Source of the DNA: Gluconacetobacter johannae
GTDB lineage: Bacteria > Pseudomonadota > Alphaproteobacteria > Acetobacterales > Acetobacteraceae
Direction: 5' to 3'
DNA: 64,000 bases
NCBI RefSeq assembly: GCF_014174305.1
Contig: NZ_JABEQH010000004.1
Coordinates: 62,001-126,000, forward strand
The position numbers and the translations under genes were made by a program. A model generated the notes under the pieces. The model made no database searches, had not been told where the DNA came from, and was given only the letters and a program-made list of their open reading frames with translations. Positions 203 through 9,250 of this stretch are shown one piece after another. Positions within the stretch are counted from its first letter, which is position 1, and every line of letters starts with the position of its first letter.

Positions 203-583
203 CTACGATGCGCGCGCCATCAGCACGACGCCGGAGACGATCACGGCTAACCCCACGACCCGCATCGGATGGATGTTCTCGCCGAGAAAGATGATTCCGG
301 CGAGGACGGTCAGAACGATGCCGAACGCGACGCAGGGATAGGCCTGGGACACGTCGATACGCGCCAGCACCAGAAGCCATACGACGGCGCTCAGGCCAAA
401 GGCCAGCAGGCCCAGGACGACCGGCACATTCAGCGCGATCACCGACACCGCGTCCCAGACGCCGGACCGGTTCGCGATCGCGGCCTGGACCGCCCGGTCC
501 GACATTCCCGTCTTCAGCAGGATCTGGGCGGAGGAGGACAGCAGGACGCTGATAAGTACAAGACCGATTGTTCCGAATGTCAT
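203..583 (-). CDS. SMR/EamA-like small membrane transporter
   Basis: A 126-residue protein with four hydrophobic segments (about 3-25, 45-72, 79-100, 103-122), the size and topology of small multidrug resistance and ArnE-type half transporters. The third segment (AYPCVAFGIVLTVLAGIIFL followed by GE) resembles the conserved AY...G...G..F.E pattern of the SMR/EamA superfamily. I chose the ATG at 583 over an upstream start because it overlaps the stop of the preceding gene as ATGA, implying translational coupling. With a HAD-UbiA protein and a large membrane protein upstream, a role in flipping a polyprenyl-linked sugar (as ArnE/ArnF do) is more likely than drug efflux. That role is inference. 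Confidence 0.75.
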   Translation of the reverse strand: MTFGTIGLVLISVLLSSSAQILLKTGMSDRAVQAAIANRSGVWDAVSVIALNVPVVLGLLAFGLSAVVWLLVLARIDVSQAYPCVAFGIVLTVLAGIIFLGENIHPMRVVGLAVIVSGVVLMARAS

Positions 584-2295
584 GGCGTGGATACCCCTGG
601 CGCGGCGAAGACGCAAAGACGGTCAAATCGAGCCGCCTGTGCCTGTGAATCGGCCTGCGTGCAGCCATCGACCACATAGGCGATGCCGTGAGCCGCGGCA
701 TAGGACAGGCGTTGAGGAAGAGTCTGCAATGTTCTGACCTCCGTTACCCTGCTCCGCCATGTCTGGTAATAGGCGGGCGCCCACATCACGGCGGCCCCGG
801 CCTGGGCGAATACCCATGCCTGCCGGTGGGAAAAATAGGGGAATACGACGACGCCCGCGGACAGTTGTTCCTGATCCGCGCTGGCTCTGGGAAACATGCC
901 CGAATCCCGCAGGGCCCCAGGGGGGACGAGAAATACAGCGTCGGGCTTCGTCTGGGTCCTGGCCCATGTACCCAGGGCCTGCCACTCATTTCGTCGGGCG
1001 ATATCGGCGCGGTCGGATGCCATGGCGTGATAGATCCGCGCCACGTTGAACAGCACGACAGGCAGCAGCAGGGCCGCTGGCGCGTAAACGCGCCATGAGC
1101 CGGTTATGACCGGCGATGTCCGCTGCCACAGCAATAGCGGAATAGCCAGCGGCAGCAGAGGTTTGAGCGAGCAGGACAGCAGGATAAGCGCGGGCGCCCA
1201 CACGAGACGGTCCATCTCGTTGCGGGAAAAGATCCATCTGGTTGACAGGGCCGCGATGGCGGTCGCCGCCATCAGATGCACCGTGCTTCCCGATCGCAGC
1301 AGGTGCAGGTTCAGCAGCATGCGCGCATGGGTCGCGAAGGGAAGGAAAACGCCGAAGATCCAGACTGCCGCCGCCCCGCATAATGCGGCTGTCAGATACG
1401 AACCGGGCGCACGCAGCATCTGCGCGGCGAGTACGCCGCAGCAGAAAACGCCCGTCAGCAGGCACACATCCCGAAAGGAGATGGTCCATATCAGGAAATG
1501 ATCCGGATAGAACGACGTCAGATAGGTGACGTAATCGAAATCTGCCGGCCTGGCATACGGATTGCTCAGGATGTTGTAGACGACGGGCGCGGCCAGCAGC
1601 CCGAAGAGCACAAGACCCACGCCTGCTTGCCGCAGAAGCGCCGGCCACGTCCATTCATGCCGTCGTCCCTGGGACCACAGGATGAAGGCGAGAGGAACCG
1701 CGGTCCAGACGGCGATGAAGGCGTTGATGAAGAACGTCACGCCGTTCATGGCAAAGGCGGCGGTGACGCGCCCCCGCGCCGCCCAGGCCAGGGCCAGAAG
1801 TGTCGTTCCGTTCGCCAGTTCGGATTGCGTGAAGTTGTTAATCAGCAGGCCTCCGCCCCCTGCATGGGAAAAGGCATGCAACGGTGAGGAGACGGCGAGA
1901 AGCGCCGTGAAGACCAGGCGTTCTTTCGGACTGTCGATTCCCAAAAGGCTTGCCCATGACAGGAAGCCGAGGAACAGAAGGGTTCGCGACAGGATCTGGA
2001 ATACGAACAGAATTGCGTACACGTCCTGGCCATGCACGCGGCCGGACAGCAGTTGCCAGAAGCCGGACGAATAGAAGCGCAAGCTCTGGATGAACGGGTC
2101 ATTTGCGAATTGGGGTTCGTTATACAACCCGGCCAGGATGGAGAGATGAAAGAAATTGTTCAGTTGTCCACCGATATGTCCCGACAGCGCAACCGACAGC
2201 AACGCACCGAACGATGCGATGGCATATGTGACGCACCAATCCGGAACGCGTCGCACGCGCAGGGTGGCACTCGGCAGTATGGTGGAGCCCGTCAT
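580..2295 (-). CDS. Polytopic inner-membrane protein, possible GT-C-type glycosyltransferase
   Basis: 571 residues with roughly ten or more hydrophobic segments spread from residue 20 to 420 and a soluble C-terminal third. The first large loop (about 45-90) is rich in polar and aromatic residues, as in GT-C enzymes that use lipid-linked sugar donors. I see no unambiguous catalytic motif, so the enzyme assignment is weak. It overlaps the downstream SMR-like gene by four bases and lies about 195 bp after a UbiA-type prenyltransferase, with a repeat element between. The neighbourhood suggests a lipid-linked sugar pathway. It could instead be an uncharacterised conserved membrane protein of surface-polysaccharide loci. 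Confidence 0.65.
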   Translation of the reverse strand: MTGSTILPSATLRVRRVPDWCVTYAIASFGALLSVALSGHIGGQLNNFFHLSILAGLYNEPQFANDPFIQSLRFYSSGFWQLLSGRVHGQDVYAILFVFQILSRTLLFLGFLSWASLLGIDSPKERLVFTALLAVSSPLHAFSHAGGGGLLINNFTQSELANGTTLLALAWAARGRVTAAFAMNGVTFFINAFIAVWTAVPLAFILWSQGRRHEWTWPALLRQAGVGLVLFGLLAAPVVYNILSNPYARPADFDYVTYLTSFYPDHFLIWTISFRDVCLLTGVFCCGVLAAQMLRAPGSYLTAALCGAAAVWIFGVFLPFATHARMLLNLHLLRSGSTVHLMAATAIAALSTRWIFSRNEMDRLVWAPALILLSCSLKPLLPLAIPLLLWQRTSPVITGSWRVYAPAALLLPVVLFNVARIYHAMASDRADIARRNEWQALGTWARTQTKPDAVFLVPPGALRDSGMFPRASADQEQLSAGVVVFPYFSHRQAWVFAQAGAAVMWAPAYYQTWRSRVTEVRTLQTLPQRLSYAAAHGIAYVVDGCTQADSQAQAARFDRLCVFAAPGVSTP

Positions 2296-2321
2296 GTCAT
2301 GCCGTCCGCGTTATGAATGGC

Positions 2322-2455
2322 TCTTCGGCGGCATGTCTCAGGGCGCCGCCCTGAAACTCGCCGAAGGCCACAGGCCTTTGGAAACCGATCCGTTCATCCG
2401 TGGCCGGGGTCCAGGGCCTCGGACCCTGGTGGGTCCGGGCAAGGCCCGACCTGTC
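2322..2455. repeat. Intergenic palindromic repeat element
   Basis: The gap between two minus-strand genes holds several inverted repeats: TCAGGGCG/CGCCCTGA (2338-2354, one-base centre), CCAGGG/CCCTGG (2411-2429) and further GGTCC/GGACC and GGGC/GCCC pairs up to about 2450. The style (paired GGCGCCGCCCTG and AGGCCTTTGGAAACC blocks followed by GGGTCC repeats) matches, from memory, a dispersed intergenic repeat common in Acetobacteraceae and related genomes. It could act as an mRNA-stabilising or terminating structure between the two genes. Copy number in the genome cannot be judged from this window. Confidence 0.5.
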
Positions 2456-2489
2456 CTGCCGGTTGTGTCACCGTTTTCGTCGCCTGGCG

Positions 2490-3929
2490 TCAGATCGAGA
2501 TCAGGACGACAAGAAACGAGATTGCGACCGCGTAGCGGCAGGTACGGTCACGCAATGCCCAGATGACCGGGTCGTCATGCATCTGGCGTCGATGCGCGAC
2601 CAGCAGCGCCCGGGCAAGGATGAACAGCAGAATGGGCGACAGGATCCAGAGAACGTACGGGTGGGTATACATCTGCCTGACCGAATCAGACGTAATATAC
2701 AGGGTGAATACCGTCACCGCATTCGTCCCGCAGGCCGCGGCCAGCGCCGCCAGGATCATGAGGTCGTCCTTCCGGTAGGCCCGGCTGCTCGATTCCGGAA
2801 GATTGCCGTCCAGCCGGACAAGAAGTTCGGTGTACCTCTTGATAAGGGCAAGAGAGGTGAATACGAACAGCGAGAATGCCAGGATCCATTCGGAAAGAAA
2901 GATGCCTGTCGCCGCCGCCCCCCCGATCAGCCTGGCCGTGTAGAGCAGCGCAAGTCCGACGACGTCGCCGAGCATCTTGCGCTTCAGCCAGAAGGAATAG
3001 CATGTGGTCAGGGCGACGTAGCCGGCTAGCGTGACCGAGAACATCCATGGCAACACAAGGCAGGCGGCAATGGCGCCCAGGCCCAGTATCGGGATTGCCA
3101 GCAGGGCGGAATGGACCGACAGGGCGCCACTTGCCAACGGACGTCGTCTTTTGGAGGGATGCAGCCGGTCATCCCCCAGATCGACCATGTCGTTCAGCAG
3201 ATATATGGCGGACGCTGTAACACAGAAGGCCAGGAACGCGACGCAGCTTGCGGCCAGTGTTCCGATGTGGAACGCGTGCGCGGCCAATGCGGGCAGAAAC
3301 ACCAGAACGTTTTTCGCGTATTGGTGGACCCGAAGCGCACGCGCCCAGATCTTTACGGTATGATTCGGCTTTTCGATGATGTCGACATTTTCGAATTTAT
3401 TCAGCTTCCTGAGCGAACGGGCATCAAGCCCGATGGCATGGCAGCGATGGGCGTGACGCCAGATCGCCAGGTCATGGCGATGGTTGCCGACATAGTCGAA
3501 CCCCTTGTCGCCGAAAGCGTCGACCAGTACGCGCGCCTTGTTGGCGCCGGCGAGATTGTGGCGCTTGTCGCTGGCGAACAGCCCGTCGAAGCTGCCGAGA
3601 TGGTCGGCCACCGCGTGTGCGAATCGTTCGTTCGAAGCCGTGGCGAGATAGACCGGCCGCCCTTCCATCCGAGCGTCGTCGATCAACTGCAGGATGGCCT
3701 GATGATAGGGCAGCGTCGTCGCATCAATCTCGGCATGCGTAGCAACGGCCTGCTTCAGATGAGACCGCCCGCGAAATAATGAGAAAAGCAGGGATGGCAG
3801 GGCCGCGGGGTTTCGCCCGACGCAATTGAAAAAGGATTCTATAAGAAGATCCGACGCTATAAGCGTGCCGTCCAGATCGACAACCAACGGATGCGAGTGG
3901 GTTTGACCCAGGGACACTGCTACGTTCAT
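2490..3929 (-). CDS. HAD phosphatase-UbiA prenyltransferase fusion
   Basis: 479 residues in two parts. Residues 1-185 are a HAD-type phosphatase domain with the nucleophile motif DLDGT (18-22) and a late GNHRHD acidic motif (148-153). From about residue 195 there is a UbiA-type integral membrane transferase with the prenyl-diphosphate-binding motif NDMVDLGDD (246-254), then HPSKRRRPLASG (257-268) and several membrane segments. This HPxKRxRPLASG form is typical of the branch containing decaprenyl-phosphate phosphoribosyltransferases (mycobacterial Rv3806c type). An inferred role is transferring phosphoribose from PRPP to a polyprenyl phosphate, with the HAD domain removing the 5-phosphate. The start is the only good ATG, and AT-rich DNA lies upstream. 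Confidence 0.85.
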   Translation of the reverse strand: MNVAVSLGQTHSHPLVVDLDGTLIASDLLIESFFNCVGRNPAALPSLLFSLFRGRSHLKQAVATHAEIDATTLPYHQAILQLIDDARMEGRPVYLATASNERFAHAVADHLGSFDGLFASDKRHNLAGANKARVLVDAFGDKGFDYVGNHRHDLAIWRHAHRCHAIGLDARSLRKLNKFENVDIIEKPNHTVKIWARALRVHQYAKNVLVFLPALAAHAFHIGTLAASCVAFLAFCVTASAIYLLNDMVDLGDDRLHPSKRRRPLASGALSVHSALLAIPILGLGAIAACLVLPWMFSVTLAGYVALTTCYSFWLKRKMLGDVVGLALLYTARLIGGAAATGIFLSEWILAFSLFVFTSLALIKRYTELLVRLDGNLPESSSRAYRKDDLMILAALAAACGTNAVTVFTLYITSDSVRQMYTHPYVLWILSPILLFILARALLVAHRRQMHDDPVIWALRDRTCRYAVAISFLVVLISI

Positions 3930-4295: not shown

Positions 4296-4601
4296 TTATG
4301 TCACCTCGAAATCGACCAGGATGTCGGTTGCCGTCGCATCGCCTTCCGGCAATGGCTCGTCCGCGCTGTCCGAGAAGAGCGCCAGGCGCAGGCCGACGGC
4401 GCACCAGTCGCCGGGCTCGGCCTTTATCTCGCGCAGAACACCGGCCTGGCCGGCGCGGACCTCGACCACGGCCTTGTGGGTTTCCAGTTCGACAATCAAA
4501 TCACCCGGTGCAAATGTCGATCCCGCGCCGCCATGCCATTCCAGGATCCGGATTTCCTCGACGCCCGGTACCGCGGCGGGAACTGACAATTGATAGATCA
4601 T
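4296..4601 (-). CDS. Free-standing lipoyl-domain protein
   Basis: 101 residues that are little more than one lipoyl/biotinyl carrier domain. The lipoylation loop reads VELETHKAVVEVRA with the acceptor lysine at residue 43 (canonical loop ETDKA). There is no peripheral-subunit-binding domain and no acyltransferase domain, so this is not a complete E2. The ATG at 4601 has a strong AGGAGG site (7 nt). The gene is 28 bp downstream of the E1 beta gene on the same strand, which makes it the likely swinging-arm substrate of the adjacent E1 pair. The C-terminal 25 residues are acidic. No E2 acyltransferase or E3 gene is in the window. Confidence 0.85.
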   Translation of the reverse strand: MIYQLSVPAAVPGVEEIRILEWHGGAGSTFAPGDLIVELETHKAVVEVRAGQAGVLREIKAEPGDWCAVGLRLALFSDSADEPLPEGDATATDILVDFEVT

Positions 4602-4629
4602 TATTATCCTCCTTGTTGTTCGGGTGATG

Positions 4630-5619
4630 TCAGCGCGCCAGCAGCGTGCGGATGGCGTCCGCCACGCGGGGCGCGTCGGGGATGCAGGCGGCCTCCAGCA
4701 CCGGATTCGACGAGACCGGGGCGGGAAGGGCGCCAATGCGGATCCATGGTTTCGGCCCGGTCCGCTCGAACGTCCGGGTCGCCACTTCGGTCCCGACGCC
4801 GCAGACGGTCTGGCCTTCCTCGAGGGTCAGCAACCGGCCGGTCCGCTCCACGGAGCCCGCCACGGTGTCGATGTCCAGCGGCGCCAGGCTGCGGAGGTCG
4901 ATGACCTCGCAGGATATGCCGTCCTGGGCCACGATCTGCGCGGCGTCGCTTGCCACGCGCATCATGTAGCCGTGGCTGACGAGGGTCAGGTCGGTTCCGT
5001 CGCGCCGTATGCAGGCCTGCCCGAAGGGAATGGAGGTTTCCGTGACCGGCACATCGCCCGGTGTCGGAAAAAGCCGCTTGTGGTCGATATAGACCACCGG
5101 GCCGTCGCCGCGCAAAGCCGTCTTCATCAGCCCGTAGGCGTCGGCGGGCGTCGAGGGGGCGACGACCCGCAGGCCGGGGACGCTCATCAGCCAGGCTTCG
5201 ATGCATTGGGAATGGGCGACGCCCTGTCCCTGGGCGCCCGCCGTGGTCTTGACGACCATCGGCGCCGACAGGCCGCCCGCCGTCTTGTAGCGGAGCTTGG
5301 CCGCGTAATTAATCAGGGCGTCGAAGCCCAGCATCAGGAAATCCATGTAGGTGATGCTGACCAGCGGCCGATAGCCCGCCGCCGCCGCGCCGGCGGCGAT
5401 GCCGATGGTCGCGGCCTCGGCGACCGGGGTGTCGCGTATGCGGTCCGGGCCGAATATCTTGTACAGCCCATCGAATTCCCGATACGAGCCACCGAAGGCG
5501 CCGACGTCCTGGCCGAGGATCAGGATATGGGGGTCCCGCGTCATTTCCTCGCGGACGGCGCGCGTCACCGCTTCGCGGAAAAACATCCGCGCCATAACCG
5601 GCTTTTGTTCATACAACAT
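4630..5619 (-). CDS. 2-oxoacid dehydrogenase E1 component, beta subunit
   Basis: 329 residues, the usual length for PdhB/AcoB/BkdB-type E1 beta subunits, which with E1 alpha decarboxylate a 2-oxoacid on thiamine diphosphate and transfer the acyl group to a lipoyl lysine. Recognisable features are the N-terminal FFREAVTRAVREEMTRD and GQDVGAFGG segment, the DTPVAEAATIGIAAGAA helix, and the C-terminal transketolase-like domain with DLRSLAPLDIDTV and EEGQ. The start at 5619 has an AGGAGG site and overlaps the E1 alpha gene by 11 bases. The gene sits in an EPS operon instead of beside E2 and E3 genes. The substrate cannot be told from the sequence; pyruvate or acetoin are the ordinary options. Confidence 0.9.
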   Translation of the reverse strand: MLYEQKPVMARMFFREAVTRAVREEMTRDPHILILGQDVGAFGGSYREFDGLYKIFGPDRIRDTPVAEAATIGIAAGAAAAGYRPLVSITYMDFLMLGFDALINYAAKLRYKTAGGLSAPMVVKTTAGAQGQGVAHSQCIEAWLMSVPGLRVVAPSTPADAYGLMKTALRGDGPVVYIDHKRLFPTPGDVPVTETSIPFGQACIRRDGTDLTLVSHGYMMRVASDAAQIVAQDGISCEVIDLRSLAPLDIDTVAGSVERTGRLLTLEEGQTVCGVGTEVATRTFERTGPKPWIRIGALPAPVSSNPVLEAACIPDAPRVADAIRTLLAR

Positions 5620-6544
5620 GTCGCAGAACCTCCTGTGCCGTCGGGTAGGGCGATGCCTCGGCGTAGGCCATGGCCTGTGCGATTTCCGCCGCGGCGTCCT
5701 GACGCATCTGCTCCAGCCCCACGTCATCCACGATGCCGTCCGCCTGCAGGGCGGCGGCATGGCGCCGTATCGGGCAATGGGTCTGCAGTTCGGCCAGTTC
5801 GGCGCGGCTGCGGGTTTCCCGGGCCGTCGTGGAATGCGACCGCAGGCGAATGGATGTGCATTCCAGGAACGCCGGCCCCAGGCCGTCGCGGATGTGACGC
5901 ACCGCGTCGCGTGCCGCCGCCGCGACGCCCTGCACATCCAGCCCGTCGATGGTGCGGGCCCACATGCCGAACGTCGCCCCCAGGTCGGACAGGTTGGCGA
6001 CCGCCAGCGCCGCGTCGCGCGCGGTCGATACGGAAAGCTGGTTGTTGTTGCAGACGAACAGGATGGGCAGCTTCCATTGCGCCGCCATGTTCAGGGTCTC
6101 GTGCAGGGCGCCCGCGCCGCAGGCTCCGTCACCGAACAGGATGGCGACGATACCGCCGTCGCCGTCCAGTTGCCGGGCCATGGCCACCCCGGCGGCGATG
6201 CTGATATTGCCGCCCACGACGGCGTGCGCGCCGAAAAAGCCGGCCTGCGGGTCCGACATATGGCCGCGTCCCGCGCGGCCCTGGTTCATGCCGCCGGACT
6301 TTCCCAGCAATTCGGCCATGACCCGTTCCGGTGCGACGCCACGGGCCAGCGCCGGGCCGATCGACCGCCCGCCGGTCAGCAACTGGTCTTCGGCCCCCAG
6401 CGCCGACGCCAGGCCGACGGCGACGGCCTCCTCGCCCGATGACAGCAACTGGAAGCCATGTTCCTTCCGGCGGGCCAGGGTGTCCTCGAAGGTGCGGATC
6501 ATCAGCATGGCGCGCAGGGCGCCCACGGGATCGATATGGGTCAT
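5609..6544 (-). CDS. 2-oxoacid dehydrogenase E1 component, alpha subunit
   Basis: 311 residues with the thiamine-diphosphate motif starting GDG (138-140) and closing NNN (166-168), plus the SGEEAVAVGLASAL and GKSGGMNQGRAGRGHMSD segments typical of PdhA/AcoA. It pairs with the following E1 beta. The length is slightly under that of housekeeping PdhA and close to AcoA. The ATG at 6544 overlaps the stop of the preceding SGNH-like gene as ATGA, so translation is coupled to a polysaccharide-type gene. That coupling argues that this is a dedicated paralogue, not the main pyruvate dehydrogenase. Function in EPS acylation or in a modified sugar is inference. Confidence 0.9.
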   Translation of the reverse strand: MTHIDPVGALRAMLMIRTFEDTLARRKEHGFQLLSSGEEAVAVGLASALGAEDQLLTGGRSIGPALARGVAPERVMAELLGKSGGMNQGRAGRGHMSDPQAGFFGAHAVVGGNISIAAGVAMARQLDGDGGIVAILFGDGACGAGALHETLNMAAQWKLPILFVCNNNQLSVSTARDAALAVANLSDLGATFGMWARTIDGLDVQGVAAAARDAVRHIRDGLGPAFLECTSIRLRSHSTTARETRSRAELAELQTHCPIRRHAAALQADGIVDDVGLEQMRQDAAAEIAQAMAYAEASPYPTAQEVLRHVV

Positions 6545-7401
6545 TGCGGTTTCAGTCCCATCAGTCTGACCATGCCCGACGTCAGCAGGCCGAGGCTTTC
6601 CTGCACGCCCCGTCGCCGGACCGCGTGAATGAGTTTGTCCGCCGCCTGGCGTGGCGGGATCTGGCCCTTCAGCACCTGCCGGATCAGCCAGCCGACGTGG
6701 TTATCCTGGACAGAGTCGGTAATGGTGGAGACGACCTGCCGTCGTCGACCCTTGCCCATGGTCATCAGGTTGCCGGGAACAAGGTCCGGCGCCGGCCGGA
6801 TGGCGGGCTGGCTGGCGGTGATCGCCCGCTTGACGCGCTCCTGGGCTTCGAAGGGCAGGGCGGCATCCAGGGCGTTGTCCACGATCCCCAGCGCCAGCGC
6901 ATGGCCCGCGAGCTCGGCGGCCGCCTGGCCGTCCAGGCCGTAATCCGTCAGTACCCGCACGGCGCCGACATCGCTGAATATCCTGTCCAGATCGACGACG
7001 AAGAGGCCGTAGGCGCGTGACAGTTCCGTCGCCAGCAGGTTCAACCGGCGGATGCGGACCAACAGCGCCTCGGCGCGATCGGGGTCCCGCTGCGCGCCGA
7101 TGTGGCGGAAGATGGTGGTGACAAGGACCGTGTCGCCGCTGTCGCACAGGGCGGCATAGTTCTGGCGCAGCCGGGCTTCGACCTCGCTCCAGGGGGTATC
7201 CAGCTGGTCCAGTTCCGGCGTCAGCGACGCAATGCGGATCGTGCCGGGCGTCGCCGTTTGCAAGCGGTCGAAATCGGCGACCGTCGCACAGGCCAGTTCC
7301 GCCCCTTCGTCGCCAAGGGCGGCCTGCAGGATGTGGGCCGCCCTGGCCACGGTGGCATGTTCGCCTGGGGGCACGAAAGCCGCGACGGATATCTGCTTCA
7401 T
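6541..7401 (-). CDS. SGNH-hydrolase-like protein, catalytic His apparently lost
   Basis: 286 residues, no signal peptide. The pattern of beta strands and helices (VLVTTIFRHIGAQRDP, then LSRAYGLFVVDLDRIF, then LTDYGLDGQAAAELAGHAL) resembles the SGNH-like protein encoded two genes upstream. Where that protein has DTFHLTPEG, this one has TDYGLDGQA, so the block V histidine is replaced. It may be a non-catalytic partner or a diverged acyltransferase. Both ends overlap neighbours by four bases (GT2 upstream, E1 alpha downstream). An alternative view is that it is an unrelated conserved EPS-locus protein; similarity was judged by eye only. Confidence 0.55.
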   Translation of the reverse strand: MKQISVAAFVPPGEHATVARAAHILQAALGDEGAELACATVADFDRLQTATPGTIRIASLTPELDQLDTPWSEVEARLRQNYAALCDSGDTVLVTTIFRHIGAQRDPDRAEALLVRIRRLNLLATELSRAYGLFVVDLDRIFSDVGAVRVLTDYGLDGQAAAELAGHALALGIVDNALDAALPFEAQERVKRAITASQPAIRPAPDLVPGNLMTMGKGRRRQVVSTITDSVQDNHVGWLIRQVLKGQIPPRQAADKLIHAVRRRGVQESLGLLTSGMVRLMGLKPQ

Positions 7402-8456
7402 CGGGAGATCCCCTGTTCGGCATGGCGGGTGCCGAACGGCGCGGTGCTGGCCGCCAGATAGGCCGCGCGTACCGCATCACGCCCCTCCAGCCCGTCATAT
7501 GTCGCGGCGATGCGCGCCAGTTGCGGCAAGGACAGGATGCGCGATGCCTCGAGCACGGTCTTCTCGTCGCTGAGGCTTTGCCAGAGCAGCGGCAGCAGGG
7601 CCACGTCGGCGCGGGGATGGGCGGTATAGAAGATGTCTTCCCAGTCCTTGTCCTGCAGGGGATCGCGCCAGCCGCTGCGATGGATCATGTGATAGCTGCG
7701 CGCGGTGGTGGCCGTCATTTTCCCGCCGTCCCGGCACAGCCGCAAAGCCAGTTCACGATGTTCGTTGATCGAGAGATCGGGGTGGAAACCGCCGGAGTCC
7801 AGAAAGGCGGCGCGCACGACCGACTGGTTGGCGCCGGCGGCCGCGGCCCACAGGATGCCGCAATCCTCCGCGTCCCGCAGGGCTTCCATTTCCAGTTCAT
7901 AGAGCTTGCGCGGGCCATATCCCGGATAGACCCCGGGCTGCGCGCGGCCATCGATTTCGTCGAACCGGCTTCTGATCTGCTGCCGGGTGACCCGGGCACG
8001 GTCCATCTCGGCGGGGGACATGCGGGCCACCCGTTCCTCGTGGCCGGGCTGGGGCGTGCCGGCCTCGGGGTCGCGGAACGGCCGCGTGCATCTCAGATGA
8101 AAATTCTCGCCCCGGACGATGAGGTCCGGCCGTAGGCGGTGGCACTGCATGTGCCCGGCGACCAGGTCGGGCCCCGCCAGCGTATCGCCGTCCAGGAAGA
8201 TCAGGATGTCCCCGCTGGCATGCGCGGCCCCGGCATTGGCGGCCGCGGACCGGCCGGCCGGCTTCGCATGGTGCACGGCGACAAGGTCGAGGTCGCGCGG
8301 GGCCTCGGCGATGACGGACGCCGTGTGGTCGGTCGATCCGTCGTTGACGACCACGACCTCGGCCGCTTCGGTTTGACAGGCCAGCGAGGTCAGGGTCAGG
8401 CGCAGGCGGTCTGCCTCGTTCATCGAACGGATGACGACGGTCGCGTGCATGGTCAT
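7398..8456 (-). CDS. Family 2 glycosyltransferase
   Basis: 352 residues. The N-terminal GT-A nucleotide-sugar-binding fold shows VVVVNDGSTD (35-43) and the metal-binding DGD at 89-91 in LIFLDGDTL, and the middle part has an INEHRELALRL segment where GT2 enzymes carry the ED acceptor motif. No membrane segment is seen, so it should act at the cytoplasmic face on a lipid-linked intermediate. It overlaps the SGNH-like genes on both sides by four bases. It probably adds one sugar of the EPS repeat; donor and linkage are not predictable. Confidence 0.88.
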   Translation of the reverse strand: MTMHATVVIRSMNEADRLRLTLTSLACQTEAAEVVVVNDGSTDHTASVIAEAPRDLDLVAVHHAKPAGRSAAANAGAAHASGDILIFLDGDTLAGPDLVAGHMQCHRLRPDLIVRGENFHLRCTRPFRDPEAGTPQPGHEERVARMSPAEMDRARVTRQQIRSRFDEIDGRAQPGVYPGYGPRKLYELEMEALRDAEDCGILWAAAAGANQSVVRAAFLDSGGFHPDLSINEHRELALRLCRDGGKMTATTARSYHMIHRSGWRDPLQDKDWEDIFYTAHPRADVALLPLLWQSLSDEKTVLEASRILSLPQLARIAATYDGLEGRDAVRAAYLAASTAPFGTRHAEQGISR

Positions 8457-9250
8457 TTCTCCTCCGCGCTATCGAACACACCCAGATCGTCAAGCACGCG
8501 TACGGCGTCTTCCGCGACGCGCCTGTAGCCTTCGGGCGTTAAATGGAACGTATCGAGTTTCAGTTTGTCCGCGCCATGGCGGGCGATGACGGCATCCACA
8601 TCCACAATGGATATGCCGAGCGTCGCGGAAAGTTCCACGAGGGCCAGGTTGAAACGCCGTATACGTGTCGAAAATGTTTCGTCCAGGCCCAGATAGCAGT
8701 GGACCCCGTCACCGGGGACCACCGACGACAGATTATGGACCAGAATCGGTACATCCCGTTCCTGACGCAGTCTTTCGACAATCTGTGCCAGATTGTCCAT
8801 CGACTGCTCGACCGTCAGAAAGCCGACCGCTTCGAATTCCGATCGAAGCCATCGTCTGTCCGCCTCTGCCCAGGTGGCTGCGTCGGCGGGGTACAGAAAA
8901 TATCCCTCTGTCCGGTGACGCACCAGTTCGGTGGCGACGTCCGGCAGGATCGACAGGAAAATGGCGTCGGCAGGCGTTGTGAAAACTGCCGTGCTGAACT
9001 GGCTGGTCGGCGGGTAGTTGCCAAGTGGTAGCGTGCGCTCGGCCAGGGAGGCCGGAACGGCCCCGGTCGCAGCCAGAACGGCGTCCGAACGTGTCAGGGT
9101 CTCGTGACGCAGGCGCGTCGACAGGCCCGGATAGGACCCGCGCAGGATCTCGTTGATGCCGTTCCACTGCACCGTGCCCCCGATCCGGCAGGAATGCAGG
9201 GCATCATGGACATCGACATTGCCTTTGGCGAAGAGGGTCAGCCGCTTCAT
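8453..9250 (-). CDS. SGNH/GDSL-hydrolase-like protein
   Basis: 265 residues. The C-terminal DTFHLTPEG (233-241) is a good block V with Asp233 and His236 of a Ser-His-Asp triad, and VPILVHNLSS resembles the block III region. The N-terminal block I reads FAKGNVDVHDALH in place of GDS, so a nucleophilic serine is not evident in its usual place. No signal peptide: cytoplasmic. Such proteins in EPS loci may attach or remove acyl groups. A GGAAA ribosome site precedes the ATG at 9250, and the 3' end overlaps the next GT2 gene by four bases. Confidence 0.65.
   Translation of the reverse strand: MKRLTLFAKGNVDVHDALHSCRIGGTVQWNGINEILRGSYPGLSTRLRHETLTRSDAVLAATGAVPASLAERTLPLGNYPPTSQFSTAVFTTPADAIFLSILPDVATELVRHRTEGYFLYPADAATWAEADRRWLRSEFEAVGFLTVEQSMDNLAQIVERLRQERDVPILVHNLSSVVPGDGVHCYLGLDETFSTRIRRFNLALVELSATLGISIVDVDAVIARHGADKLKLDTFHLTPEGYRRVAEDAVRVLDDLGVFDSAEEK

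Follow-up and report, generated by a model that had tools for sequence, protein, structure and literature searches.

A nine-gene module with a candidate E2-less E1-lipoyl acyl-loading system in Gluconacetobacter johannae

The main known fate of lipoyl-bound acyl groups is transfer to coenzyme A (CoA). The QncN/QncL/QncM proteins of quinocarcin and the SclQ1-4 proteins of scleric acid are described systems against which the locus reported here can be set. In the excerpted text of PMC6335953 they appear as glycolicacyl-loading, E1-lipoyl units that stand outside central metabolism. The present locus lies on contig C4 of the 3.63 Mb genome of Gluconacetobacter johannae, of which positions 62001-126000 were analysed (the window, a stretch of 64,000 nucleotides with its own numbering), and it encodes an E1 alpha/beta pair of the 2-oxoacid dehydrogenase type and a free-standing lipoyl protein, next to which glycosyltransferase, SGNH and transglutaminase-fold genes stand in the place of an E2. 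Together they make up a nine-gene module whose order is kept far beyond the genus. It is about evenly balanced whether the module, without an E2 of its own, loads an acyl group and transfers it to a glycan or glycoconjugate, in which case acyl-lipoyl would pass to thiol enzymes. No description of this gene set was recognised in searches of the open-licence PMC literature.

Genes of the module and their active sites

The module consists of SGNH5, GT2c, P4, E1A, E1B and LIP together with TGase, LIPdeg and SGNH529, the last three of which lie mostly beyond the window and are located by their coordinates in L006.

SGNH5, 8453-9250, minus strand: SGNH family (Lipase_GDSL_2, 1.9e-8), with KGNxD in place of GDS
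GT2c, 7398-8456, minus strand: the module's glycosyltransferase of family 2 (GT2; PF00535, 2.3e-19), recurrent in module loci
P4, 6541-7401, minus strand: 286 residues, SGNH fold, without the conserved first-loop Ser or the DxxH His
E1A, 5609-6544, minus strand: 2-oxoacid dehydrogenase E1 alpha, 311 residues, GDG...NNN (E1_dh, 4.1e-58), changed residues L33, G59 and I62
E1B, 4630-5619, minus strand: 2-oxoacid dehydrogenase E1 beta, 329 residues (Transket_pyr, 3.3e-37; Transketolase_C, 2.8e-29)
LIP, 4296-4601, minus strand: free-standing lipoyl protein, 101 residues, predicted lipoyl-lysine K43 in ETHKA (Pfam Biotin_lipoyl, 1.2e-10)
TGase, 3-158 in the window (52 codons, one end) and L006 14962-16158 as a whole gene, minus strand: transglutaminase core (PF01841, 2.6e-16)
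LIPdeg, L006 14451-14819, outside the window: lysine-free paralogue of LIP with an invariant Cys-Pro
SGNH529, L006 13081-14454, outside the window: SGNH protein that has Cys where, by sequence position, the nucleophile is expected

The pairs SGNH5/GT2c, GT2c/P4 and P4/E1A each overlap by 4 bases and E1A/E1B by 11, and a gap of 28 separates E1B from LIP. Coordinates and Pfam matches confirm the E1 pair, the 101-residue lipoyl protein with its K43 and the overlaps that an earlier note had read from the sequence. The same note let the unit end at LIP; the same-strand run of exopolysaccharide (EPS) genes that it described is there, but the end point was misplaced, as TGase, LIPdeg and SGNH529 continue the module. 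P4, SGNH529 and LIPdeg have no Pfam match above the curated cut-off, and P4 has none in NCBIfam either.

As judged from aligned columns, the E1 pair and LIP retain the residues required for thiamine diphosphate (ThDP) chemistry and lipoyl acylation, the latter being served by the E1 His residues. In E1A, Asp139 and Asn168 are found in 34/34 rows and His237 in 33/34 (one gap), and in E1B, His136 is found in 37/37 and Glu68 in 36/37 (one gap). The only Pfam domain of LIP is the lipoyl domain, no subunit-binding domain is recognisable in its 101 residues, and the best PDB matches of its profile are the lipoyl domains of E2 proteins. Its K43, the predicted lipoylation site, is present in all 25 chosen rows and in at least 97% of the 41 rows of a wider alignment; the identity of LIP to its Gluconacetobacter azotocaptans counterpart is 97%. 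LIPdeg is a relative of LIP (hhalign 98.1%) that lacks the lysine and carries Cys51-Pro52 in 29/29 rows. Rows for the residue alignments were chosen for spread (34 for SGNH529, 30 for P4, 29 for LIPdeg and 25 for LIP), and the wider alignment, with 38, 28, 38 and 41 rows respectively, agrees with them. The alignments leave out L015, L018, L020 and L021, which come from the same genomes as L028, L030, L054 and L055, and L016, a near copy of L015; rows covering less than 58% of the reference and weak window fragments were excluded from them as well. Two copies of LIP, at 1313-1618 and 6362-6667, occur in L048, an Aromatoleum metagenome-assembled genome (MAG), one of them with ETYKA instead of ETHKA.

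The substrate pocket of E1A differs from that of its canonical relatives at fixed positions. Leu33 replaces His in 32/34 rows (two gaps), Gly59 replaces His or Tyr in 34/34 and Ile62 replaces His in 34/34, the corresponding columns of seven canonical E1 alpha proteins holding seven His, four His plus three Tyr, and seven His. Aligned with human E1 alpha, these positions correspond to His63, Tyr89 and His92, residues that contact the substrate or ThDP. A loop Asp found in all seven canonical proteins is likewise replaced by Ala or Thr in 32/34 module rows. In a tree with eight canonical E1 beta proteins the 37 module E1B rows form a single clade (support 100/100, with a program warning of long branches). 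Pyruvate is a doubtful substrate for the module E1, because E1B forms a clade of its own and the E1A pocket changes are fixed; these changes identify no particular substrate. E1A scores below the NCBIfam cut-off for pyruvate dehydrogenase (PDH; 270.7 versus 393.85 bits, TIGR03182, equivalog), and E1B below those of NF006667 (298 versus 321 bits, subfamily) and NF008854 (272.4 versus 454, equivalog). The nearest E1 beta proteins outside the module, from a phylum search of 398 genomes (E up to 1e-75), share 40-42% identity with E1B and come from six genomes, in five of which an E2-like gene adjoins, and in the sixth the contig stops there.

Searches by tblastn with the catalytic domains of PDH and 2-oxoglutarate dehydrogenase (OGDH) E2 and with E3 gave no match in 42 sources, the window and 41 others (662,486 bases), with positive controls and with AcoC-type E2 outside the query set, in agreement with the claim of the note that neither E2 nor E3 is encoded nearby. 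The host genome has its own complexes, a complete PDH on contig C13 (E1a, lipoyl-E1b, E2 and E3) and OGDH E2/E3 on C2, and altogether two PF00198 E2 proteins and two E3 proteins above the TIGR01350 cut-off. Contig C8 (L022 6933-10086) further carries an E1 pair of the acetoin type, together with a lipoyl-alpha/beta-hydrolase E2, which scores 481.7 bits against a cut-off of 307 with the acetoin E2 model. The idea that the genome might have no PDH E1 besides this pair is ruled out by the full PDH and the OGDH found elsewhere.

SGNH5 is related by profile comparison to SGNH529 (99.3%) and to P4 (97.3%), and the three differ in what remains of the active site. In SGNH5, GDS is replaced by KGNxD and DxxH is mostly retained (D233 in 30/33 rows, H236 in 33/33). 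The note had called P4 SGNH-like, which holds for the fold: its AlphaFold model has a predicted local distance difference test score (pLDDT) of 87.4, and Foldseek matches it to the SGNH hydrolases Axe2, PatB and TesA. It does not hold for catalysis, as P4 has no conserved Ser at positions 9-14 and has L, M or F at the position of the DxxH His in 30/30 rows; other serines, Ser59 (29/30) and Ser128, are conserved elsewhere, and P4 is probably a pseudoenzyme. The suggestion that this adjacent protein might hand on the acyl group is thus weakened, P4 being a poor candidate because no nucleophile is conserved where one is expected and the DxxH His is lacking. By its conserved columns, SGNH529, with an invariant Cys, or TGase fits such a role better. 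The SGNH529 model (pLDDT 87.4, predicted template modelling score 0.90) matches SGNH esterases in fold; hmmsearch with SGNH529 against the PDB returned no match. Cys168, Asn355 and His423 are found in 34/34 rows each and Asp420 in 32/34, and Cys168 occupies the place of the family's Ser, judged by where it falls in the sequence once the first SGNH strand has ended. In the Foldseek results a single row, to an E2 model (9a4v_B; E 0.016 over 122 columns), hints that the N-terminal domain of SGNH529 may be lipoyl-like. In TGase, Cys269/His303/Asp319 are retained, with Cys in 40/40 rows, His in 39/40 (one gap) and Asp in 38/40 (two gaps). Four tandem transglutaminase-fold genes lie by the module in a Caulobacteraceae MAG (L039 2-4790), one of them truncated at the end of the locus, and L042 and L050 have two each.

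Distribution and genomic setting

A scan of genome contigs with LIP matched 69 stretches, of which 40 were confirmed, and 38 loci remained once L064 and L065 (32-34% identity) were dropped. All nine families are present in 27 of the 38, and E1B adjoins LIP in 36; the other 11 loci (L029, L031, L037, L045, L047, L048, L051, L053, L054, L055 and L062) sit on contigs 4-17 kb long or have flanks cut by a contig end. The loci belong mostly to Alpha- and Betaproteobacteria, and include the genera Gluconacetobacter, Nguyenibacter, Novosphingobium, Aureimonas, Caulobacter, Methylocella, Methylocapsa and Falsiroseomonas, as well as MAGs labelled Acidocella, Erythrobacter, Aromatoleum, Burkholderiales, Hyphomicrobiales, Micropepsaceae and others. 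MAGs labelled Verrucomicrobia, Kuenenia and Eremiobacterota also carry the module and may be misbinned. In most of the other loci SGNH529 and LIPdeg directly follow LIP on the opposite strand, and TGase stands on either side. In Methylocapsa palsarum (L060 7096-8052), a gene for an NAD-dependent epimerase is inserted between P4 and E1A. The occurrence of the module is sporadic, with a P4 match in 8 of 299 genomes of the family and an SGNH5 match in 2 of 385 genomes of the class, the host genome included. Conservation across genera rules out chance or a local rearrangement as the origin of the arrangement, and an anti-phage system was rejected after the nine proteins had matched 0 families each among the PADLOC models.

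With the gene order conserved and the host's own PDH and OGDH encoded elsewhere, the anatomy of the loci gives good support to a dedicated system in which E1 loads the lipoyl protein and to which no E2 belongs. Both conditions that the earlier note had set for refuting its proposal turned out not to hold.

In the host genome the EPS setting is real: further upstream, the same minus-strand run comprises two additional GT2 genes, a GT4 gene, a Wzc-like gene and a Bac_transf gene. In the plant endophyte Gluconacetobacter diazotrophicus, EPS output falls by 90% in gumD and by 94% in wzc mutants (PMC8620434). A Wzc gene accompanies the module in the window, L016 and L026, and orthologous glycosyltransferase genes occur in L027 and L028. 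A flippase gene (PF13440, 1.3e-48) is present in L035 together with a Wzc-like match (27%), and L041 has a flippase-like gene by eye. The description of the locus as an EPS operon holds for Gluconacetobacter and a few others; most of the other loci checked showed no recognisable EPS genes, though glycosyltransferase genes recur, among them a further GT2 gene in 12/40 sources (PF00535 9.4e-9 for one).

Three genes separate the two halves of the module to the left of LIP (window 203-3929), namely UbiA-HAD, a membrane protein gene and an SMR-like transporter gene. UbiA-HAD scores over the cut-off of NF006088 (PRK08238), which is related to decaprenyl-phosphate phosphoribosyltransferase models. 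As module members UbiA-HAD, MP571 and SMR were rejected, since, outside Gluconacetobacter, they accompany it only in L017, with UbiA-HAD present in L030 and L041 as well. A large gene resembling, by eye, membrane-bound pyrroloquinoline quinone (PQQ) glucose dehydrogenase lies near the module in L032, L033, L035, L041, L043 (weak, 26%) and L049, and might bear on a sugar-acid substrate.

Proposed mechanism and competing explanations

The loading reaction, the relay, the acceptor and the acyl group, as we infer them, would be as follows. E1 alpha/beta would decarboxylate a 2-oxo acid, probably not pyruvate, or cleave a ketose phosphate, and reductively acylate the lipoyl-lysine of LIP. The acyl thioester would then move to SGNH529 (through Cys168/His423), to TGase (through Cys269/His303/Asp319) or to both, LIPdeg and the N-terminal domain of SGNH529 itself may serve as docking parts, and the acyl group would end up on a sugar that GT2c handles, attached to one of its hydroxyl or amino groups. 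P4 and SGNH5, the relatives of SGNH529 with altered active sites, are perhaps binding or scaffold parts, and the E3 of the cell would re-oxidise the reduced LIP. The more specific picture, in which the lipoyl protein is a free acyl carrier, the thiol relay of SGNH529/LIPdeg and TGase replaces E2, and an unusual, non-acetyl group reaches the sugar, is put forward tentatively. If acyl transfer to a glycan by this route is true, it would be a new acyl-supply route for surface or secreted glycans in many proteobacterial genera, and the module offers a defined protein set for reconstitution.

Pairwise distances of the nine families, uncorrected for species phylogeny, correlate at 0.64-0.88, which counts in favour of the mechanism. 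Several observations weigh against acyl transfer of this kind. The E2 search was confined to PDH and OGDH types. The conservation of the LIP motif is partly built in, as [IVM]VELETHK was one of the two scan patterns, and the N-terminal domain of SGNH529 matches the LIP profile only weakly (28.6%). L053 and L054 carry LIP and partner genes but no adjoining E1B: the 978 bases that precede LIP in L053 contain none, nor does the stretch between P4 and LIP in L054, whose fragmented genome (G270, 700 contigs, 96% complete) holds only E1B relatives at 38% and weaker. L047 is without P4 and SGNH529, and SGNH529 is therefore not indispensable. Finally, in most of the 27 flank-listed loci, inspection by eye and a blastp comparison with a small set of reference genes revealed no EPS genes, polymerase or flippase, Pfam having been applied to 10/174 flank genes.

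The main and serious rival, which we nevertheless hold to be unlikely, is branched-sugar synthesis, in which an E1 pair like AviB1/AviB2 or Pau11/Pau12 would transfer a two-carbon acyl anion to C-4 of a keto-sugar and LIP would be accessory; it is serious because those E1 pairs act on sugars too. This chemistry is not known to require a lipoyl carrier. The excerpted texts of PMC4425429, PMC4753412 and PMC4802897 name none, while they propose E1 alpha/beta pairs for such a transfer in the avilamycin and paulomycin clusters and report C-4 branched octoses in Gram-negative polysaccharides. Glycosyltransferase genes recurrent beside the module suit this explanation as well. Yet LIP adjoins E1B in nearly all loci and keeps its Lys, the E1 pair keeps the His residues whose role is lipoyl acylation, and TGase, LIPdeg and SGNH529 would be left unexplained. 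A small-molecule or lipid glycoconjugate as the product, rather than a decorated polymer, is a variant of the acyl-transfer mechanism, with which it shares part of its probability, and is possible though short of even; the partial checks that recognised no polymerase or flippase in most flank-listed loci and the sporadic occurrence of SGNH5 and P4 agree with it, whereas the Gluconacetobacter module abuts a Wzc/glycosyltransferase cluster (window, L016 and L026) and that of L035 lies by a flippase gene.

An accessory E1 for an ordinary complex, with LIP carrying its acyl group to the PDH or OGDH E2 for release as acyl-CoA, could draw on the two E2 and two E3 proteins of the host. It is quite improbable, given a LIP made up of a lipoyl domain without any recognisable subunit-binding domain, and it would not account for the presence of SGNH, TGase and GT2 genes alongside. 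Lipoate-binding proteins with a non-acyl role exist, according to the excerpt of PMC6067878, and the lipoyl group with the three cysteine proteins might accordingly perform sulfur or redox chemistry, like LbpA in the Hdr-like sulfur pathway. Several invariant cysteines would suit this role, but the PDB matches of the LIP profile to E2 lipoyl domains and the adjoining E1 pair with its ThDP residues make it very improbable.

Comparison with known systems

AdmF of andrimid, the subject of Fortin 2007, is reportedly a transglutaminase homologue that catalyses condensation on carrier-bound thioesters. It is said to resemble TGase in its transglutaminase fold and to differ in acting with peptidyl carrier proteins, not with a lipoyl protein. 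Like the PDH, OGDH, branched-chain 2-oxoacid dehydrogenase and acetoin dehydrogenase complexes, the module has the E1 ThDP motif, the catalytic Glu and His and a predicted lipoyl-lysine; it differs from them in that no PDH/OGDH-type E2 or E3 was found co-encoded in the 42 sources, for which AcoC-type E2 was not queried. AviB1/AviB2 and Pau11/Pau12 share with it an E1 alpha/beta pair in a sugar-related cluster, but no lipoyl partner is named for them in the excerpts of PMC4425429, PMC4753412 and PMC4802897.

QncN/QncL and the AcoC-type E2 come closest as precedents. Acetoin dehydrogenase with its AcoC-type E2 (PRK14875) likewise combines an E1 pair and a lipoyl domain with a hydrolase-fold partner in place of the usual E2; AcoC is a single fused alpha/beta-hydrolase protein, whereas LIP, the SGNH proteins and TGase are separate, and the E1 identity is ~32-39%. 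QncN/QncL and SclQ likewise place an E1 alpha/beta pair with a lipoyl domain outside central metabolism, where they provide a biosynthetic product with a C2 acyl group; in the excerpted text of PMC6335953 an acyltransferase domain is attached to their lipoyl domain and an acyl carrier protein belongs to the set, whereas the LIP of the module stands alone and the searches detected no PDH/OGDH-type E2 domain with it.

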